The notes under the pieces: generated by a model
What the model was told of the DNA's origin: nothing
Database searches by the model: none
What the model saw: only the letters and a program-made list of their open reading frames with translations
Part shown: piece by piece, positions 17,261 to 60,001 of the stretch
Numbering within the stretch: the first letter of the stretch is position 1
Layout of the letters: every line of letters starts with the position of its first letter
Source of the DNA: Ornithinicoccus hortensis
Lineage (GTDB): Bacteria > Actinomycetota > Actinomycetes > Actinomycetales > Dermatophilaceae
Assembly (NCBI RefSeq): GCF_006716185.1
Contig: NZ_VFOP01000001.1
Span: forward strand, 3,658,001 to 3,722,000
Length of the DNA stretch: 64,000 nt
Direction: 5' to 3'
Made by a program: the position numbers and the translations under genes

Positions 17261-17401
17261 GGGGACCAGCCAACGCCGCGACGGCAGCCGGGACGAGGGG
17301 CAGGCCGGATCTGTGGACCGCGCAGTCCGCGCGCCACCGTTGTGGATAGACGATGGGCGGACGACCGCACGAGACGGCGCGAGAACTGGCCGGAGAAAGG
17401 G

Positions 17402-17465
17402 GACGGCCCCCGCGGGGGGAGCGGGGGCCGTCGACGTCACAGGTCAGGGGGGGATGACCCGTGAC
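17402..17465 (-). ncRNA. 6C RNA (two C-loop hairpins) upstream of ssd
   Basis: Read on the minus strand there are two adjacent hairpins. The first has an 11-bp stem GTCACGGGTCA/TGACCTGTGAC (one G-U pair) with loop TCCCCCCC. A 3-base spacer follows, then a perfect 12-bp stem GACGGCCCCCGC with loop TCCCCCC and its complement. Two hairpins whose loops hold six or more consecutive C are the defining feature of the actinobacterial 6C RNA class, known near partition/pilus genes, exactly as here. The second hairpin can act as the terminator (CCCCTTTCT follows). It probably forms the 3' end of a small RNA, as in mycobacteria. Confidence 0.85.
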
Positions 17466-17501
17466 GCCCGCGCTCAACCCTTTCGGGGAGCGCATGCATT
17501 A

Positions 17502-46066: not shown

Positions 46067-48301
46067 TCAGCGCACCTGCAGGACGTGCATCCGGTGCGCG
46101 GCCCTGGTGAGCACGACATACAGGATGCGGGCGCCGCCGGGTGCGGTGCGCACGATCTCCTCCGGGTCGACCACCACGGTCGCGTCGTACTCCAAGCCCT
46201 TGGTCGACAACGGGTCGATGACCAGGACGCGTCCGTCGTGCTCGCCCTCCAGCCCGGCGAGCGCATCCCGCCACTTCTCCGGGGTGATGACCGCGATCGA
46301 CCCGTCGACCTGGGCCCCCAGCTCCGCCACGGCGGCGGTGACCCCGGCTGCGACGTCGGCCTGGGCGACCGTCTGCTCGACCGGGTCGACGCCGGTGTCG
46401 CGGACCGCGTCCGGGATGTCCGCGTCCGGCACGTACTGCCGGATCAGCCGCGCCGCGTAGTCGAAGATCTCCTTGGCGTTGCGGTAGTTGGTGGTCATGT
46501 GGAAGCTGCGCCTGGGCGCCCGGCCGAACGCCTCCTCCCGTGCGCGGGCGGACTCCTCGAGGTCCGGCCAGGAGCTCTGCGCGTCGTCACCGACCACCGT
46601 CCAGGACGCCCAGTTGCCGCGCCGCCCGATCATCCGCCACTGCATGGGCGACAGGTCCTGCGCCTCGTCGACGAGGACGTGTGCGTACTCGTCGCCGGCG
46701 GTGATGCTGCCGGCCAGCAGCCGCTCCATCGGGTCCTGGACGACGCGCTGGTATGCCGTCCGCTCGCCCTGGGGGGTCACCGCCAGGTCCGCGGTGTCCC
46801 GGCCCAGCTTGATCGCCGAGACCCCGTACTGGGAGACGTCGTCCAGCTCGTCGATCTCGTAGAAGCCGCGTTCCTCCGAGGGCAGGTCCACCACCTGTCC
46901 GAGGCGGGCGGCGAGGTCGTCGATGAGGGCGACGTCGGCCACGCTCCACTCCCCGGTCGAGGTCGCGACGGTCAGCGACTCCGCCAGCGCGTCGGCCTCC
47001 TCCTCGGACAGCACGCCCTTGCCGAGCCGGCGGGCGGTGTCCCGGTCGGCCAGCCAGAGCAGCACCTCACGCGGGTCGACCGGTCGCCACCACTCGCGGG
47101 CGAACGCCTCGACGTCGCCGGAGTCGCCGAACTTGTCCAGGAACTCCTCGCGCTCGCCCTGCCGCACCTGTATCCAGGCCGCCTCACCGAGGGCCACCAG
47201 GGCGGCCTCGAACGAGCTGTTGCGGTGGTGGTGGCGCAGTACCTGCCGGCGCACCGACGCGAGCTGCGGCGGGTCGAGGCGCACCGCGTGCCCGGCGACG
47301 AACACCCGCAGCGTGTCGGGCGCACCCGGGATCGGCTCGCGGGCCGCCCGGCCCAGCACGGTGCGGATCCGCAGCGAGCCCTTCAGCGCCGCCGCCTCCT
47401 GGGAGTCGAACCGGGTGGCCGTGACGCCCCCGACCACGTCACCCAGCGAGCGCAGCGTGACGGTGTCCTCGCCGAGGCTGGGCAGCACCCGCTCGATGTA
47501 GGCGGTGTAGGCGGCGGAGGGGCCCACCACGAGGACCCCGCCGGACTCGAACCGGCGACGGTCGGCATACAGCAGGTAGGCGGCGCGGTGCAGCGCGACC
47601 ACGGTCTTACCGGTGCCCGGCCCGCCGGTGATCGTGGTGACCCCCGCGGCCTTGGCGCGGATCGCCTCGTCCTGGTGCTGCTGGATGGTGGCGACGATGT
47701 CACGCATCCGCGCGCCGCGGCTGCGGGTGAGCGCGGCCATCAGCGCCCCGTCGCCGACCACGACGATGTCCTCGGGGGCCTCCGGCACCATCAGGTCGTC
47801 CTCGACGCCGATGACCTCCTCGCCGCGGCAGCGCAGCACCCGGCGCCGGATGACGCCCTGCGGGTCGGCCGGTGTGGCGCGGTAGAAGGGCGCGGCGGCG
47901 GGTGCCCGCCAGTCGATCACCAGCGGTTCGTACTCGTCGTCCCGGACGCCCAGCCGGCCGACGTAGCGGACCTCCCGGTCCGCGGCGTCCGACCCGTCGC
48001 CGGAGCCGTGGTCGAGGTCGAGGCGGCCGAAGACGAGACCCTCGTGCTGGTACTCCAGGGAGGCCCGTCGCTTGGAGGCGTTGTAGACGAGGGCGTCGCG
48101 CTCGAACAACCCGGCGAGCTCCTCCTCGCGCGGGTCGCCGGTGCCCTTGCGGTCGGTCTGTCCCCGAGCCATCCCCTCGGCGTGCACGAGTTCCACCCGG
48201 GCAGCGGCCTTCGCGAGCTCGGCATAGACCCGGTCGACATGGTCCTGCTCACGCGCGATCTCGGCAGCCACGATGTCGTGGGTTGCTGCGGTCACCAGCA
48301 T
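46067..48301 (-). CDS. helD: HelD-like RNA-polymerase-associated UvrD-family ATPase
   Basis: 744 residues from the ATG at 48301. The N-terminal coiled coil (EQDHVDRVYAELAKAAARVE) matches HelD, which pushes into the RNA polymerase channel to recycle stalled or hibernating polymerase. UvrD-type motifs follow: TGGPGTGKTVVALHRAAYLLY (about 222-240), HVLVDEAQDLSPMQW, HMTTNYRNAKEIF, and KGLEYDATVVVDPEE near the end with LYVVLTRAAHRM. Both the arm region and ATPase are complete. It could be the class II HelD of actinobacteria. It follows a regulator gene about 107 bp upstream, co-oriented. Confidence 0.9.
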   Translation of the reverse strand: MLVTAATHDIVAAEIAREQDHVDRVYAELAKAAARVELVHAEGMARGQTDRKGTGDPREEELAGLFERDALVYNASKRRASLEYQHEGLVFGRLDLDHGSGDGSDAADREVRYVGRLGVRDDEYEPLVIDWRAPAAAPFYRATPADPQGVIRRRVLRCRGEEVIGVEDDLMVPEAPEDIVVVGDGALMAALTRSRGARMRDIVATIQQHQDEAIRAKAAGVTTITGGPGTGKTVVALHRAAYLLYADRRRFESGGVLVVGPSAAYTAYIERVLPSLGEDTVTLRSLGDVVGGVTATRFDSQEAAALKGSLRIRTVLGRAAREPIPGAPDTLRVFVAGHAVRLDPPQLASVRRQVLRHHHRNSSFEAALVALGEAAWIQVRQGEREEFLDKFGDSGDVEAFAREWWRPVDPREVLLWLADRDTARRLGKGVLSEEEADALAESLTVATSTGEWSVADVALIDDLAARLGQVVDLPSEERGFYEIDELDDVSQYGVSAIKLGRDTADLAVTPQGERTAYQRVVQDPMERLLAGSITAGDEYAHVLVDEAQDLSPMQWRMIGRRGNWASWTVVGDDAQSSWPDLEESARAREEAFGRAPRRSFHMTTNYRNAKEIFDYAARLIRQYVPDADIPDAVRDTGVDPVEQTVAQADVAAGVTAAVAELGAQVDGSIAVITPEKWRDALAGLEGEHDGRVLVIDPLSTKGLEYDATVVVDPEEIVRTAPGGARILYVVLTRAAHRMHVLQVR

Positions 48302-48408
48302 CTTCCCTTCAGCCCTGCATGCCTCGGTCACGGGTGTGGCACAAATGGGTCAGACGACTTTACCCGGTCGGGCGGCCGGGCACGGTCACCCGGGACGGGC
48401 GTGCCCCC

Positions 48409-49404
48409 TCAGAACCAGCCGCGGCGGGCGGCCTGCACGCCCGCCTGGAAGCGGGTGCCGCCTCCCAGGTGCTCCATCAGGAACCGGATCCGCCGCTCCA
48501 CCGTGCGGGTGGACACCCCGATGCTGCGGGCGATCATCTGGTCGGTGGCACCGGCCGCGAGCAGGCCCAGGATGCGCACGTCCCGGTCATCCAGCGGCAT
48601 GCCCTTGCGTCCGCCCTTCTCCCCGGGCCGGGGGGTGAGCGGGACCCCGCGCGTGTTGCCTACCTCGACGAGGGCCCGCAACCCGGCGAGGACCGCAGCC
48701 CGGCGGATCAGGAACGACCCGCCACCCTGCTCGTCGTGCTGGCTCAGGTCGACCAGCGCCGCGGTGTGGTCGGCGATGACCACCCCGAACGGCACGGCCC
48801 CCATCACTTTCACGGACGCCCCTGCCGCCGACTGCCGTTCCAGCTCGGCGAGGACGCCCGGCTCGCCCAGCAGCGCCCGGTCGACCACCATCGCGACCGT
48901 GTCCGCGCGCCGCTCGAGGCGCTCCGTGGTGTCGGCCCGGTCCAGCCAGACCCGGGCGGCCGGACTGTCGGCGACCATCATCAGCAGCTCGCGGTGCGCC
49001 ATGCCCTCGACCGACCGCATGCCGGCCGCGGCATCGTCCGGGATACCCAGGCCCTCGATCCCGCCCATCCCCACCTCGGCGTCGGGGGCGCCCTCCCGGC
49101 TCTGCCGCCAGATCACCCCGAGCTCGGAGGCGAACGACCGGGAGAACCGGGCCCGGGCCTCCAACAGGGCCGCGAGCCGGGGCAGGCTCTCCTCGGGAGG
49201 TTGGATCTCCCAGCGGCCGGGACCGTCCTCGGTGATCAGCCCGCGGCCGACAAGTTCCTTGCCCACCCGCCGCACGTCGTCGGGGTGGTATCCCTCCAGC
49301 TCGAGCCCTTCCTGTGTCGGCGTCCCGAGCCGGATCATCGTCATATAGACCCGGGAGAGGTAGTCCTCGAACTCCGGACCGTGCAGCTCTGCCAACCTGC
49401 TCAT
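48409..49404 (-). CDS. TrmB/LuxR-like transcriptional regulator
   Basis: 331 residues. The N-terminal about 80 residues form a TrmB-type winged helix (EDYLSRVYMTMIRLGTPTQE). The middle holds a phospholipase-D-like fold with GASVKVMGAVPFGVVIADHTAALVDL. The C-terminus is a LuxR-type HTH: DDRDVRILGLLAAGATDQMI, then RTVERRIRFLMEHLGGGTRF. Actinobacteria carry several such TrmB-LuxR fusions of unknown signal. A paralogue lies at 59030-60001. A 10-bp inverted repeat at 49454-49498 lies 50 bp upstream and may be its operator. Confidence 0.83.
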   Translation of the reverse strand: MSRLAELHGPEFEDYLSRVYMTMIRLGTPTQEGLELEGYHPDDVRRVGKELVGRGLITEDGPGRWEIQPPEESLPRLAALLEARARFSRSFASELGVIWRQSREGAPDAEVGMGGIEGLGIPDDAAAGMRSVEGMAHRELLMMVADSPAARVWLDRADTTERLERRADTVAMVVDRALLGEPGVLAELERQSAAGASVKVMGAVPFGVVIADHTAALVDLSQHDEQGGGSFLIRRAAVLAGLRALVEVGNTRGVPLTPRPGEKGGRKGMPLDDRDVRILGLLAAGATDQMIARSIGVSTRTVERRIRFLMEHLGGGTRFQAGVQAARRGWF

Positions 49405-49453
49405 CGCGCTCCCTCCAGCGGTAATACCTGCAGGTCAGACCGGGTTCACCGGC

Positions 49454-49498
49454 CGTTAACCCGCCCGTCACCCTGGCGGGCGCTCTGACGGGTTAACG
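49454..49498. promoter_or_regulatory. 10-bp inverted repeat between regulator and 6C RNA
   Basis: CGTTAACCCG (49454-49463) and CGGGTTAACG (49489-49498) are perfect inverted copies with 25 bases between. The right arm falls in the spacer of the plus-strand candidate promoter, and the left arm is 50 bp upstream of the TrmB/LuxR gene. A divergent operator recognised by that regulator is plausible. Confidence 0.55.
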
Positions 49499-49512
49499 AC
49501 AATGACTATAAG
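49484..49512 (+). promoter_or_regulatory. Candidate promoter for the second 6C RNA
   Basis: TCTGAC (49484-49489) and TATAAG (49507-49512) are 17 bp apart. A start near 49519 would give an RNA of about 165 bases ending at the hairpin at 49683. A closer start cannot be excluded. Confidence 0.45.
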
Positions 49513-49593
49513 CCGCCACGCGCTCAAGATGACATGTCCGGTCAGGTCGTGTCATGGTGTGTCTACGGCTTCGGCCGGCGCGGGGACGTGCGA

Positions 49594-49683
49594 GTCGTTG
49601 GTATCCCCCCCACCAACTGACCCTGCTCCGCGCATCGTGGCCCTCCTGGGAGAACACCCCCCCTGCCTCCCAGGAGGGCCACG
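49594..49683 (+). ncRNA. Second 6C-type RNA (two C-loop hairpins)
   Basis: First hairpin: GTC-GTTGGT, loop ATCCCCCCC, ACCAAC-(T)-GAC. Second: a perfect 16-bp stem CGTGGCCCTCCTGGGA with a 16-base loop containing seven consecutive C, and its complement ending at 49683. Two consecutive hairpins with at least six C in each loop match the 6C class, and the long second stem can terminate transcription. No protein-coding gene ends here, so the terminator belongs to this RNA itself. It lies between the TrmB/LuxR gene and purD. Confidence 0.75.
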
Positions 49684-49759
49684 AACCATTTCCAGCCCCG
49701 TTCACCCCGCCCCGCCCCCCACCCCCACCACGACCGGACGCGTCACCGGGCGGTCCCAC

Positions 49760-49817
49760 CCCGCCACCGGACGCACGAGCGGGCGGCCACAGCCCGCCAC
49801 CGGACGCACGACCGGGC
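49760..49817. repeat. Direct repeat upstream of purD
   Basis: A 25-base unit starting CCCGCCACCGGACGCACGA occurs at 49760-49784 and 49793-49817 with one mismatch, and a partial third copy (GACCGGACGCGTCACCGGGC) precedes it. The second copy ends 26 bases before purD. Tandem protein-binding sites or simple slippage are both possible. Confidence 0.5.
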
Positions 49818-49842
49818 AAAGTCGCCCACTATCGTGGCCGCC

Positions 49843-51120
49843 GTGAAGGTCTTGGTGATCGGCTCAGGTGCCCGCGAGCACGCCATCGTCCGCGCCCTGG
49901 CAGCCGACCACGCCGTGGACGCCGTGCTGGCCGCACCGGGCAACCCCGGGATCGACCTCATCGCCCGGTGCCTGCCCGACTGCGGCCCGATCACCGACCC
50001 GGACGCCATGGCGGAGCTGGCCACCGAGGTGGGTGCCGACCTGGTGGTGGTCGGCCCCGAGGCGCCGCTGGTGGCCGGGGTCGCCGACGCGATCCGCGCG
50101 GCCGGCATCCCGTGCTTCGGGCCGTCGGCCGCGGCGGCCGAGCTGGAGGGCAGCAAGGCCTTCGCCAAGGACGTCATGGCCGCGGCCGGAGTGCCGACCG
50201 CCATGGCGCACGTGTGCTCCGACGCCGATCAGGTCGCCCGCGCCCTAGAGGCGACCGGCGCCCCCTACGTCGTCAAGGAGGACGGTCTCGCGGCGGGCAA
50301 GGGTGTGGTCGTCACCGACGACATGGACGAGGCCACCGCCCACGCCCGCACCTGCCTGGCCAAGGCCGGAGGGCGCGTCGTCGTCGAGGAGTTCCTCGAC
50401 GGCCCCGAGGTCTCCCTGTTCTGCATCACCGATGGCAGCACCGTCCTGCCGCTCGCGCCGGCGCAGGACTTCAAGCGGATCGGCGATGGCGACACCGGCC
50501 CGAACACCGGCGGCATGGGCGCCTACAGCCCGTTGCCGTGGGCCCCGGACGGGCTCGTCGAGGACGTCCTGGAACGGGTGGCCCGCCCGACGGTCGCCGA
50601 GATGCAACGCCGCGGCACCCCGTTCGCGGGGATCCTCTACGTCGGGCTGGCCCTGACCTCGCGCGGGCCGCGGGTGGTCGAGTTCAATGCCCGCTTCGGC
50701 GACCCCGAGACCCAGGTCGTGCTCGCCCGGTTGCGCACCCCCCTGGGCCAACTGCTCCGCGCCGCGGCGGAGGGGCACCTCGAGGAGATCCCCGACCTGC
50801 AGTGGCACGACCGGTCCGCGGTCACCGTAGTCGTGGCCGCCGACGGCTACCCGCAGGCCCCGGTGACCGGGTCGCCGGTGACCGGCCTGGAGGACGTGGC
50901 CGCGCTCGAGGACGTGCACGTGCTGCACGCGGGCACCCGGGCCGCCCCCGAGGGGGTCCTCGCCTCGGGCGGGCGCGTCCTGTCCGTGGTCGGCCTCGGC
51001 CCCGACCTGGCGGCGGCCAGGGACCGCGCGTATGCCGGGGTGCAGCTCATCGGTCTGGCCGGGGGCCAGCACCGCACCGACATCGCCGACCGCGCCATCC
51101 GAGGAGAGATCCGGCTGTGA
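49843..51120 (+). CDS. purD: Phosphoribosylamine-glycine ligase
   Basis: 425 residues from the GTG at 49843 ([14 protein letters not shown]). A -10-like TATCGT seven bases upstream suggests a leaderless mRNA; the GTG at 49834 is an alternative. ATP-grasp enzyme of step two of purine synthesis. Motifs: [42 protein letters not shown] and [12 protein letters not shown]. First gene of the pur operon; the stop overlaps the purC start (GTGA). Confidence 0.96.
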
Positions 51121-52100
51121 CGACGACCCCCGACCGACTGCCCGGTGACCTCCCGGGCCACGTGGCGATCTACTCCGGCAAGGTGCGCGAGCTCTACGCG
51201 CCCCTCGACCCGGACACCGGCTTGGTCGACGAGAGCCGGCTGCTGCTGGTGGCCTCGGACCGGATCTCCGCCTACGACTACGTGATCGACAGCCCGATCC
51301 CGGACAAGGGCGCGGTGCTGACCCAGCTGTCCCTGTGGTGGTTCGAGCAGCTCGCCGACCTGGTCGACAACCACGTGGTCTCCACCGCGGTGCCGGACGC
51401 CGTCGCGGGCCGGGCGATCTATGTGCGCCGGTTGCGCATGCTGCCGGTGGAGTGCATCGCCCGCGCCTACCTCACCGGCGGCGGGCTGGCCGAGTACCGC
51501 GACGGGGGCACCGTCAGCGGCGTCCGGCTGCCCGCCGGCCTGGAGGACGGCTCCCGGCTGCCGGAGCCGGTGTTCACGCCGACCACGAAGGCGCCCCTCG
51601 GCGAGCACGACCTGCCGATGACCTACGAGGAGGTCGTGGCCCAGCTCGGGCCAGCGCTGGCCGAGCGGGTGCGCGAACTGACCGTGCAGATCCTGTCCCG
51701 CGGCAACGAGATCGCGGCCGAGCGCGGCATCCTGATCGCCGACACCAAGGTGGAGTTCGGGGTCGATCCGGCCGCCGTGGGGGTGGGCCCGGACGACGAG
51801 GTCGACTGGACCTCCCTCGACCCCGACAGCCTGCAGGTCGTGCTGGCCGACGAGGTCCTCACCCCCGACTCCTCCCGCTTCTGGCGGGCCGACGAGTGGG
51901 CGCCGGGTCGGGCCCAGACCTCCTACGACAAGCAGGTCCTGCGGGACTGGCTGACCTCGGCGGCCAGCGGGTGGGACCGGTCCTCGGGCCAGGCCCCGCC
52001 ACCGCTGCCCGAGGAGGTCGTGGCGCTCACCCGGGACCGCTACGTGGAGGCCTACCAGGCGCTGACCGGTGAGCGGTTCGCCCCGCCTACAATCGACTGA
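51117..52100 (+). CDS. purC: SAICAR synthetase
   Basis: 327 residues from the GTG at 51117, which overlaps the purD stop and has GAGGAGAG upstream. [47 protein letters not shown] and [10 protein letters not shown] are the standard SAICAR-synthetase motifs. The length (bacterial long form, about 300-330) is normal. Catalyses the joining of CAIR and aspartate. Confidence 0.96.
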
Positions 52101-52130
52101 CCGACCCAACACCCCCGTCAGGAGCGCCCC

Positions 52131-52415
52131 GTGGGCACCGTGATCGTCGACGTCATGCCGAAGCAGGAGATCCTCGACCCCCAGGGCCAGGCCGTCGCCG
52201 GCGCCCTCGCCCGACTCGGCCTCGGCCGGTTCACCGACGTGCGCCAGGGCAAGCGGTTCACCCTGACCGTGGAGGAGGAGGTCACCGAGGAGGTGCTCGC
52301 CGCGGCCCGCGAGGCGGCCGAGACGTTGCTGAGCAACCCGGTGATCGAGGACGTGGTGTCGGTCCGGGCGCAGCAGGACGTCGACTCGGTCCGGGCGGCG
52401 GAGGACGCCCGGTGA
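52131..52415 (+). CDS. purS: FGAM synthase subunit PurS
   Basis: 94 residues from a GTG (AGGAGCGCCCC upstream). [20 protein letters not shown] followed by LG and [10 protein letters not shown] is the PurS pattern. It bridges PurQ and PurL in the three-part formylglycinamidine synthase. The end overlaps purQ (GTGA). Confidence 0.95.
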
Positions 52416-53083
52416 GGGTCGGGGTCGTCACCTTCCCCGGGTCGCTGGACGACCACGACGCCCAGCGGGCAGTCCGGCTGGCCGGCGGGGAGCCGGTCGC
52501 GCTCTGGCACGCGGACGCCGACCTGCACGGGGTGGACGCCGTCGTGCTCCCGGGCGGCTTCTCCTACGGCGACTACCTGCGCTGCGGGGCGATCGCCCGG
52601 TTCGCCCCGGTGATGGACCTGCTCGTGCCGGCCGCCGAGGGCGGGTTGCCGGTGCTGGGCATCTGCAACGGCTTCCAGGTGCTGTGCGAGTCCCACCTGC
52701 TGCCGGGGGCCCTGGTGCGCAACGACCACCAGCAGTTCGTATGCCGTGACCAGCGGTTGCGCATCGAGCGCGCGGACACCGCGTGGACCCGTGACTACGG
52801 GCAGGGGCAGGAGATCGTGGTGGCCCTGAAGAACGGCGAGGGCGGCTACGTCGCGGACGAGGCGACCCTGGACGAGCTCGAGGGCGAGGGCCGGGTGGTC
52901 GCCCGCTACCTGGAGGTCAACCCCAACGGCTCGTTCCGCGACATCGCCGGGGTGAGCAACGCCCGCGGCAACGTGGTCGGCCTGATGCCGCACCCCGAGC
53001 ACGCGGTCGAGCCCGGCTTCGGGCCCTCCCTCGACGGGCTCGGCTTCTTCACCTCCGTCCTGCACCAGGTGGTGAACGCGTGA
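52412..53083 (+). CDS. purQ: FGAM synthase subunit PurQ (glutaminase)
   Basis: 223 residues from a GTG. A class I glutamine amidotransferase: catalytic Cys in GICNGFQVL, His and Glu in [10 protein letters not shown], oxyanion site in [11 protein letters not shown]. Supplies ammonia to PurL. Starts in purS and ends in purL by four-base overlaps. Confidence 0.96.
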
Positions 53084-55374
53084 GCACCACCCAGCCCACG
53101 GCATACCGCACCGACACCGTCACCGACGCCCAGGGGAGCCCGGACGTGGTCCAGCCTTGGGCGGACCTGGGGCTCAAGGAGGACGAGTACGCCCGGATCC
53201 GGGAGATCCTGGACCGCCGGCCCACCAGCGCCGAGCTGGCCATGTACTCGGTGATGTGGTCCGAGCACTGCTCCTACAAGTCCTCCAAGGTGCACCTGCG
53301 CCAGTTCGGCGAGAAGACCACCGAGGCGATGCGCGAGCACCTGCTCGTCGGCATCGGCGAGAACGCGGGCGTCGTCGACATCGGCGACGGCTGGGCGGTT
53401 ACCTTCAAGATCGAGAGCCACAATCACCCCAGCTACGTCGAGCCCTACCAAGGGGCGGCGACCGGCGTGGGCGGGATCGTGCGCGACATCATGAGCATGG
53501 GCGCCCGCCCGATCGCCGTGATGGACCCGCTGCGGTTCGGCGCATTGGACCACCCGGACACCGCCCGCGTGCTGCCCGGCGTCGTGGCCGGGATCGGCGG
53601 ATACGGCAACTGCCTGGGCCTGCCCAACATCGGCGGCGAGGTCGTCTTCGACGCCTGCTACCAGGGCAACCCGCTGGTGAACGCCTTGTCCGTGGGCTCG
53701 ATGCGGGTGGAGGACATTCATCTTGCCAAGGCCTCCGGCGCAGGCAACCTGGTCATCCTGTTCGGTGCCAAGACCGGCGGCGACGGCATCGGCGGCGTGT
53801 CGGTGCTGGCCTCGGAGACCTTCGACGACGAGGGACCCAGCAAGCGACCGGCCGTGCAGGTCGGGGACCCGTTCGCCGAGAAGGTGCTCATCGAGTGCTG
53901 CCTGGACCTGTATGCCGCGGGCGTGGTGGACGGGATCCAGGACCTGGGTGGGGCCGGGCTGAGTTGTGCCACCAGCGAGCTGGCCTCCAACGGCGACGGG
54001 GGGATGCGGGTGCAACTGGACACGGTGCCGCTACGCGACGCCTCGCTGCGCCCGGAGGAGATCCTGATGTCGGAGTCCCAGGAGCGGATGATGGCCGTCG
54101 TCGAGCCGGGCCGGCTCGAGGAGTTCATGGCGATCGCCACGCGGTGGGACGTCGAGGCCACGGTGATCGGCGAGGTCACCGACGGCACGAACCTGGAGGT
54201 CTACTGGGGCGAAGACTTGATCGTCGACGTTCCGCCGCGCTCGGTGGCTCACGATGGCCCGGTGTATGAGCGGCCGTTGGCCCGGCCGGAGTACCTCGAC
54301 GACTTGCAGGCCGACGACACCGGGTCCCTGGAGCGTCCGGTGGACGGGGACGGGATCCGGGACGCCCTGCTGGCGGTGTTGGCCCATCCGAATATGGCCG
54401 ATCCCTCCTGGATCACCCGGCAGTACGACCGCTACGTGCGCGGCAACACCGCCCAGGCAATGCCCGACGACGCCGGTGTGGTGCGGGTCGACGAGGAGAC
54501 CGGCCGCGGCGTCGCCCTGTCCACCGACTGCAACGGCCGATTCACCAAACTCGACCCGTATGCCGGGGCGCAGCTCGCCCTAGCCGAGGCCTACCGCAAC
54601 GTCGCCGTCGCCGGCGCCCGTCCGCTCGCGGTCTCGGACTGTCTCAACTTCGGGTCCCCGGAGGACCCGGGCGTGATGTGGCAGTTCAGTCAGGCGGTCA
54701 CCGGCCTCGCCGACGGGTGCGTCGAGCTCGGCATCCCGGTGACCGGCGGCAACGTGTCCTTCTACAACCAGACCGGGGACGTGGCGATCCACCCGACCCC
54801 CGTCGTGTCGGTCCTCGGCGTGCTCGATGACGTGGCCGACCGGAACCGCTCCGGCTGGGACGCCGAGCGGCAGGCGTTGTTCCTGCTCGGCACCACCCGC
54901 GACGAACTGGACGGTTCGGTGTGGTCCGAGGTCGCCCACGGGCACCTGGGTGGCCTGCCGCCCACGGTCGACCTGGCCGCGGAGAGGCTGCTGGCCGACA
55001 CGGTGCTCGCGGCCACCGCCGCCGGCCTGGTCCGGGCGGCACACGACCTCTCCGAGGGCGGCCTCGCGGTGACCCTGGCCGAGGGCGTCCTGCGCGAGGG
55101 TGTCGGGGCGACCGTGTCCCTGGCGGAGTTGCGGGACCGGGACGGCGTGGACGATTTCACCGCACTCTTCAGCGAGTCCGCGGCACGGGCCGTGGTGGCC
55201 GTGGACGGCGAGGACGCGCAGGCCTTTGCCCGGTTGTGCGCCGAGCAGGGCCAACAGGTCATCCGGCTGGGCGACACCGGTGGCACGGATCTGCACGTCG
55301 ACGGACTGTTCCGACTCTCGACGGAAACGTTGCGGGAGGCGAACACCGGGGTGATCGAGGCGGCACTCGGCTAA
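53080..55374 (+). CDS. purL: FGAM synthase subunit PurL
   Basis: 764 residues from a GTG overlapping purQ. The small-type PurL of Gram-positive bacteria: [58 protein letters not shown], then the second half with [20 protein letters not shown]. It lacks a fused glutaminase, which is why purS and purQ are separate. Last gene of the operon. Confidence 0.97.
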
Positions 55375-59029: not shown

Positions 59030-60001
59030 TCAGCTCCCGATGATGCCTCGCCTGGCCACCGCCAGGCCCAGCTGGAACCGGGTCTCCACCCCGTGCTCGG
59101 TCATCATCGCCGCGATCCGCCGGCGCAGGGTGCGCAGCCCCAGCCCGAGGTGCCGGGCGATCGCCTCGTCCTTGAACCCGAGGGCGAGCAGCTCCAGGAC
59201 CTTCACGTCGACCTCGGCGGTCTCCCCGTCGTGCACCGCCTCCGCCCGCCGCCAGATCGACTCGAAGAGCACCGTCACCATCGCGACCAGCGACGGCAAC
59301 CGGATGAGCAGGTAGTCGTCGTCCTCGCCGCCGGGGTCGAGCAGCACGGCGGAGGTCCCGAACACGGCGAACTCCAGGGGCACCTCCCCCAGATAGCGCT
59401 GCACCTCCCCCTCCGCCGCACGGCGCTCGGCGAAGGAGTGCCAGTGTGGGTCGGTGAGCACCGCCAGCGGGTAGATCGAGCGGTACTCCCGTCCCGTGGC
59501 CAGGTTCTCCCGCCGGTTCCGCTGCACGCCGCTCTCGTGCCCGGGGCCGGCCTGGACGTGGGCGGTGATGGCCAGGACGGGACCGGTCGAGCTCTGCAAC
59601 AGCAGCTCCACCATGGCCGGCGCCTCCGCCCGCGGCACCTCCTCCAGCGCCGGCAGCCGCGGACCCGTGAGCTGCAGCCCGCGGCGGTAGTCGGCCTCGA
59701 ACACCGAGATCGCCTGGCGCAGGTCGAGCAGCTGGGCCCGGCGTTCGTCCAGCAACGCCTCCTCGGTGGCCAGCAACCGACCCAGGCTCCCCCGGGGGTC
59801 GTCGGCCCGCAGCAACCGGTCGTCGGTGCGGCGCACCAGACGCAGCCGGATCAGTTCGCCGAGCAGGTGCCCGGCCCGCGCCGAGCTCCACCCGAGCTCC
59901 TCGGCGTGCTGCTCCAGGGTCGCCGGCAGTTCCCGCAGGACACGACGGAACAGCAGCTCCGCCCCGGGGCTCAGGACGGCGCCGGATCGTTGATCATTCA
60001 C
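59030..60001 (-). CDS. TrmB/LuxR-like transcriptional regulator (second copy type)
   Basis: 323 residues from a GTG. Same plan as the regulator at 48409: an N-terminal winged helix (about 15-70), a middle domain with [19 protein letters not shown], and a C-terminal HTH with [20 protein letters not shown] and [21 protein letters not shown]. The end motif ([14 protein letters not shown]) matches its paralogue (GTRFQAGVQAARRG). A dyad (60012-60032) precedes it, perhaps autoregulatory. It reads away from purA, whose start lies just past its stop. Confidence 0.82.

Follow-up and report, generated by a model that had tools for sequence, protein, structure and literature searches.

The closest described system is 6C/B11 (RF01066), a short actinobacterial RNA with two hairpins that each expose about six C. 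In Mycobacterium abscessus, B11 represses an mRNA with a six-G tract through its two C-rich loops, the eccB4 5′ UTR has six G, and repression stays when either C-loop alone is mutated, according to the available part of the report (PMC10470900). The Corynebacterium glutamicum 6C RNA is a transcript of ~100 nt with two runs of eight C, to which the accessible text assigns no function (PMC4046766). The Streptomyces RNAs scr5583 and scr1434 are expressed actinobacterial sRNAs with a C-rich terminal loop and are not termed 6C in the excerpt at hand (PMC3765725).

The DNA analyzed here (the window) is a stretch of 64,000 nucleotides from Ornithinicoccus hortensis. A sequence-only reading of the window had proposed an RNA with two C-loop hairpins at 49594–49683, upstream of purD. 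Both hairpins are present, as GTTGGT-ATCCCCCCC-ACCAAC at 49597–49617 and CGTGGCCCTCCTGGGAG-AACACCCCCCCTGC-CTCCCAGGAGGGCCACG at 49636–49683. The terminator-like stem of the second hairpin and its seven C were read correctly, and the length given for the stem, 16 bp, is corrected to 17 perfect pairs by sequence (18 in the fold). The proposed extent covers hairpins B and C of a longer unit, which begins near 49564 and has an additional 5′ hairpin and outer stem. The locus contains the following features.

48409–49404, minus strand: divergent regulator with a TrmB-like N-terminal part and a C-terminal LuxR/GerE HTH, the proposed controller of the RNA (Pfam, homologue profile)
49486–49518, no strand assigned: tandem palindromic operator TGNCGN6CGNCA-N-TGNCN6CCGNCA (pattern conserved in 51 of 52 loci, genome-wide pattern search)
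49529–49558, plus strand: candidate promoter of the RNA, with −35-like ATGACA at 49529–49534 and weak −10-like CATGGT at 49553–49558 (consensus reading)
49564–49683, plus strand: the complete conserved C-loop small RNA (match to the covariance model over 120 nt at 102 bits; covariation in four helices across 52 loci)
49565–49578, plus strand: hairpin A, with a UUCG-type loop in this genome (helix 1, double changes in 5 of 5 pairs)
49578–49633, plus strand: outer stem, 49578–49585 with 49626–49633, around hairpin B and a conserved internal loop (helix 2, double changes in 6 of 6 pairs)
49594–49621, plus strand: hairpin B, with a C-run in the loop at 49603–49611 (sequence, fold, helix 3, C-run counts)
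49636–49683, plus strand: hairpin C, terminator-like, with seven C at 49657–49663 (sequence, fold, helix 4, C-run counts)
49830–49835, plus strand: purD −10 box TATCGT, 7 nt before the GTG at 49843 (comparison of 51 loci)
49843–51120, plus strand: purD, the downstream neighbor (protein match, start context)

The segment 49590–49690 folds with −51.2 kcal/mol (z = −7.5), a value equalled by none of 200 shuffles. The two C-loop hairpins are separated by an 18-nt linker, and the T-rich tail after hairpin C is weak (27–34% T in the first 10 nt versus 17–23% further on). A putative RNA of ~120 nt fits 49564–49683 on the plus strand, with a 5′ hairpin, a C-loop hairpin within an outer stem and a C-loop terminator-like hairpin.

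Covariation analysis was used to examine the structure in 52 loci, 31 from the genus and 21 from other genera, aligned by fitting to a covariance model. The 36 pairs comprise 1822 pair cells, and 97.7% of these are paired compared to 77.2% in shuffles and 42–50% in slid versions of the alignment. Changes on both sides are found in 30 of the 36 pairs in this model-fitted alignment, and all four helices contain compensatory changes. An unfitted MAFFT alignment of the 31 genus sequences has double changes in 13 of 32 predicted pairs. There are more G-U than A-C cells on the model-fitted alignment (127 versus 13) and on the unfitted MAFFT alignment (71 versus 11), which places the RNA on the plus strand and rules out the opposite strand. 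The sequence-only reading had put forward conservation of the C-runs and stems in relatives as a check, and both are kept across the 52 loci: at least five C occur in the hairpin B region of all 52 and at least six C in loop C of 51. Loop C has the core CCCCCCUG, and in 15 of the 52 loci its sequence is ACCUCCCCCCUGA, a variant that we take to resemble the 16S anti-Shine-Dalgarno sequence. The internal loop GTGnGA / CCTG is conserved as strongly as the C-runs. These data establish a covarying structure, its coding strand and the conservation of its C-runs.

The label “6C-type” given to this RNA is not borne out. The Rfam 6C model has a single match in the window, a true 6C RNA at 17398–17468 on the minus strand (61.6 bits); the whole-window scan returned no 6C match at 49594–49683, and a local scan of 49400–49850 returned none at E 10. 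Membership was set at 47 bits or more with model RF01066, a score that the purD-side RNA does not reach. A search of the whole genome with this model places 17398–17468 alone above the cut-off, with five weak matches, among those listed, elsewhere. The model matches 105 of 149 family genomes at E 0.001, and none of the matches listed is the purD-side RNA, as judged by eye from the coordinates. In the reverse direction, a covariance model built from the 31 genus sequences of the purD-side RNA (R1) scores the true 6C locus at 14.2 bits (E 1.5). The purD-side RNA is short and actinobacterial like 6C and has two neighboring hairpins with about six C per loop, whereas the Rfam 6C consensus consists of two adjacent hairpins and no further conserved elements. 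The purD-side RNA adds a 5′ hairpin, an outer stem with an internal loop and a longer linker, and it is flanked by a TrmB/LuxR regulator gene and purD and preceded by a tandem operator. It is rejected as a 6C copy on the missing Rfam match, the low reverse score and the separate 6C gene. Of the “two copies” of one C-loop family that had been proposed, the second C-loop RNA exists and belongs outside 6C.

No Rfam family matches 49564–49683 in the whole-window scan, and the permissive scan of 49400–49850 yielded only matches far under the gathering scores of their families. A literature search for purD-associated RNAs, as far as the retrieved text of the sources extends, gave no description recognized as the purD-side RNA. 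For scr5583 and scr1434, which share the C-rich loop, the part of the source available describes one C-rich loop region and does not mention purD (PMC3765725); these RNAs are set apart by description, not by sequence. Judged from these comparisons, the purD-side RNA is a family of its own, without an Rfam match.

A DNA search with 49440–49700 matched all 31 genus genomes searched (this genome and 30 others), none of five genomes from other genera of the family, and 5 of 22 genomes from other families weakly, through short pieces (E 0.003–0.006). The genus alignment contains a conserved block spanning the operator through hairpin C, and the flanking sequence on either side is poorly conserved. 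R1 scores all 31 of its source sequences with at least 97 bits. A chance origin of the hairpins is excluded because they are conserved in every genus genome searched, by both measures. Beyond the genus, R1 matches 44 of 149 family genomes at E 0.1, representing 19 of 53 genera. A model built from the 52 loci (R2) matched 17 of 396 genomes of the order at E 0.1, with 15 below E 0.001 (13 in family f1 and two in family f5), and 7 of 296 genomes of the class, with six below E 0.001, every one already in the order list; many of the matched genomes are model members or their near kin, and the strict filters of these searches are prone to lose weak matches. The matched stretch in three marginal genomes (G438, G133 and G715) is without a run of five C. 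A further copy of the RNA, weaker at 49.5 bits, is present in one genus genome (G001, contig C9, locus L040, 1395–1521). This copy is without the operator (10/16), and purD and the regulator are not among the neighbors seen.

The gene divergent from the RNA encodes a regulator that joins a GerE HTH to a putative TrmB-like part. Its C terminus scores 25.4 bits as a GerE HTH against a Pfam cut-off of 23.5, and GerE is matched in 51 of 51 regulator homologues at E 1 or better. A profile of the 51 homologues matches TrmBL2 over columns 25–265 (E 1e-4) and NarL over columns 271–334 (E 1.5e-8). PF01978 (TrmB) is matched in 8 of the 51 at E 1 or better, and the window protein is not among the matches listed. 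In its profile the regulator resembles both TrmBL2 of the TrmB family and the NarL/GerE regulators, and it differs from them in joining the two parts in one protein that is divergent from an sRNA gene. A second, more distant homologue is encoded at 59045–59470 on the minus strand, ~10 kb from the first (36% identity over residues 175–329). The other neighbor of the regulator gene is a UvrD-like helicase gene at 46067–48331 on the minus strand, presumably HelD/HelR-like.

Regulator, operator and RNA are linked, with the operator at a fixed spacing. The regulator gene is adjacent and divergent in 42 of the 44 R1-positive family genomes, at 148–266 nt from the RNA in 33 genomes of other genera and 103–240 nt in nine genus genomes. 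The two remaining genomes are G086, where a contig end truncates the locus, and G075, which has no regulator match at E 1e-10. In all but one of the 52 loci, the operator begins 74–79 nt ahead of the RNA; it scores 16/16 in 33 loci, 15 in 10, 14 in six and 12 in two. The mean operator score is 15.3/16 versus 9.4 in mononucleotide shuffles of the 52 loci, a score that is not independent since the pattern was derived from the same loci; the informative parts of the result are the fixed spacing and the one exception, G075 (10/16). G075 is both the single R1-positive family genome without a regulator match and the one locus without the operator, and a homologue (66% identity) of the helicase on the regulator side of the window lies directly beside its RNA.

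The linkage was also followed into R1-negative genomes. A regulator match at E 1e-10 is found in 103 of 149 family genomes, 43 of which are R1-positive. The regulator regions of 33 R1-negative genomes were read, a set that leaves out 24 genomes with weaker regulator matches; an operator scoring at least 13/16 lies upstream in 23 of the 33, ten are without it, and 21 of the 23 have a C-run followed by TG 135–175 nt further on. Fifteen diverged regions were folded. The plan is clearly repeated, by eye, in all except L150 and L155, with at least five C in hairpin B in 11 and no such run in four. In two genomes of genus g28 (L126 and L134), C-loop hairpins are found upstream of the regulator and the tandem operator is missing, and control may have changed in this genus. 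The two f5 genomes have the RNA before purD with neither operator nor adjacent regulator. The f5 and g28 cases indicate that control of the RNA by the regulator is not universal. In the f5 genome G057, a 28%-identical regulator homologue is found ~3.6 kb upstream of the RNA and purD (L159, 482–1477), beside a gene that we take to be purA-like, hinting at a wider purine link.

The tandem operator was searched in the 31 genus genomes allowing one mismatch. It is found at the RNA site in 24 genomes, and the other seven score 12–14/16 there. Elsewhere there are 22 places, one of them perfect (in G022), versus 22 control matches; one of the sequences at these places recurs in five genomes and another in two. 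This search covered the tandem pattern with up to one mismatch, and a wider regulon may operate through single or looser sites. The operator was also considered as an RNA hairpin, which is ruled out since the free arm positions are complementary in just 13 and 10 of the 52 loci.

The −10 element of the RNA is a poor CANNNT that is preceded by TG, as in an extended −10, in 37 of 52 loci, and the RNA starts ~7 nt past it. The sequence-only reading had assigned the RNA its own promoter, TCTGAC-17-TATAAG, with an operator. The RNA does have a conserved candidate promoter and a conserved operator. The proposed promoter, at 49484–49512, is rejected: both hexamers fall in the half-sites of the operator at 49486–49518, and TATAA is kept in 8 of 31 genus loci. 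Regulation of the RNA was a sensible reading, and the neighboring regulator probably controls the RNA.

The placement of the RNA between the regulator (48409–49404, minus strand) and purD (plus strand) is as originally described. The purD start is most likely 49843. The ORFs that follow in the same direction (49843–55374, plus strand) are presumably purC, purS, purQ and purL, which puts the RNA at the head of a purine cluster. Forty purD upstream regions were inspected, five from R1-negative f1 genomes and 35 from 15 other families. C-loop hairpins are found in the two f1 regions with the regulator and in none of the three without it. The 35 regions from other families lack both a regulator match and a closely spaced pair of C-loop hairpins, and isolated low-scoring C-loop hairpins occur in seven of them.

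We consider it reasonably likely that the locus encodes a free-standing, regulated, trans-acting C-loop sRNA under the divergent regulator. From these comparisons we infer its transcription, the sign of its regulation, its pairing in trans and its targets. In the proposed mechanism, the TrmB/LuxR-type protein would bind the tandem palindrome, which spans approximately −78 to −45. From this class I-like position it would most likely activate the weak promoter at 49529–49558. The ~120-nt transcript would terminate at hairpin C. The two exposed C-runs would pair with G-rich stretches of mRNA, probably Shine-Dalgarno sites, and cause repression like the 6C/B11 C-loops, the analogy on which this step is based. 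The outer stem and conserved internal loop would keep hairpin B in place and may serve as a protein-binding site. A search for the loop C complement GGCAGGGGGG before start codons in six genomes found 15 places versus 23 in the control, which is not an enrichment, and no gene was shared among the places inspected; the search is small and says little about shorter pairing. One GGCAGGGGGG place in the O. hortensis genome seems to be inside the coding sequence of what is presumably mraY, and the remaining places are upstream of ORFs with lengths of 5 to 501 codons.

Four other explanations were weighed. A cis-acting purD leader or attenuator, in which hairpin C terminates transcription ahead of purD in the absence of an overriding signal, would account for the location of purD, which in 51 of 52 loci follows the RNA on its strand, and for the f5 genomes, where the RNA adjoins purD without an operator. 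It is very unlikely because purD has its own leaderless-type −10 box: TANNNT lies 6–8 nt ahead of the purD GTG in all 51 loci with a readable start, as is characteristic of a leaderless mRNA transcribed from a promoter of its own, and this favors a separately transcribed, leaderless purD mRNA. The gap between RNA and purD also ranges from 27 to 548 nt (51 loci), and in G026, which retains both RNA and regulator, no purD lies within 1.6 kb. A true 6C paralogue that has diverged past the reach of the Rfam model would explain the two C-loop hairpins and their similar order and size. We regard this as highly improbable given the absence of a 6C match at E 10, the 14.2-bit reverse comparison, the extra 5′ hairpin and outer stem, and the presence of 6C as a separate gene in the same genomes.

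The remaining two explanations accept the RNA as described and differ on how it is controlled or how it acts. If the regulator were a repressor or mainly controlled itself, RNA output would rise on ligand sensing. Two palindromes between divergent genes fit autoregulation, and G075, without the regulator, keeps the RNA without the operator, as expected if no activator is needed. The operator is upstream of the −35 element, though, not across the promoter, and the weak −10 is typical of activator-dependent promoters, so this form of control appears unlikely. Action by protein binding, with the C-runs or the internal loop as a protein site or sponge, would fit the internal loop GTGnGA / CCTG being conserved like the C-runs, but the analysis named no such protein, and C-loop pairing has a direct precedent in B11 in the available part of that report (PMC10470900). 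We judge this mode of action improbable.

To our knowledge, there are few actinobacterial sRNAs for which both the controller and the targets are known. The purD-side RNA looks like a regulated gene-silencing RNA, and its adjacent candidate regulator, sharply defined operator and strong covariation make the controller, the signal and the C-loop mechanism directly testable. That one genome contains two or more distinct families of RNA with paired C-run hairpins raises the question of how they divide their targets in G-rich genomes. We tentatively suggest a relay of one regulator and one small RNA, parallel to 6C and present in many genera of one actinobacterial family. The tandem operator of a TrmB/LuxR sensor would be present in essentially a single copy per genome, located at a C-loop sRNA promoter, and the sensed signal would reach the rest of the genome through RNA pairing alone.
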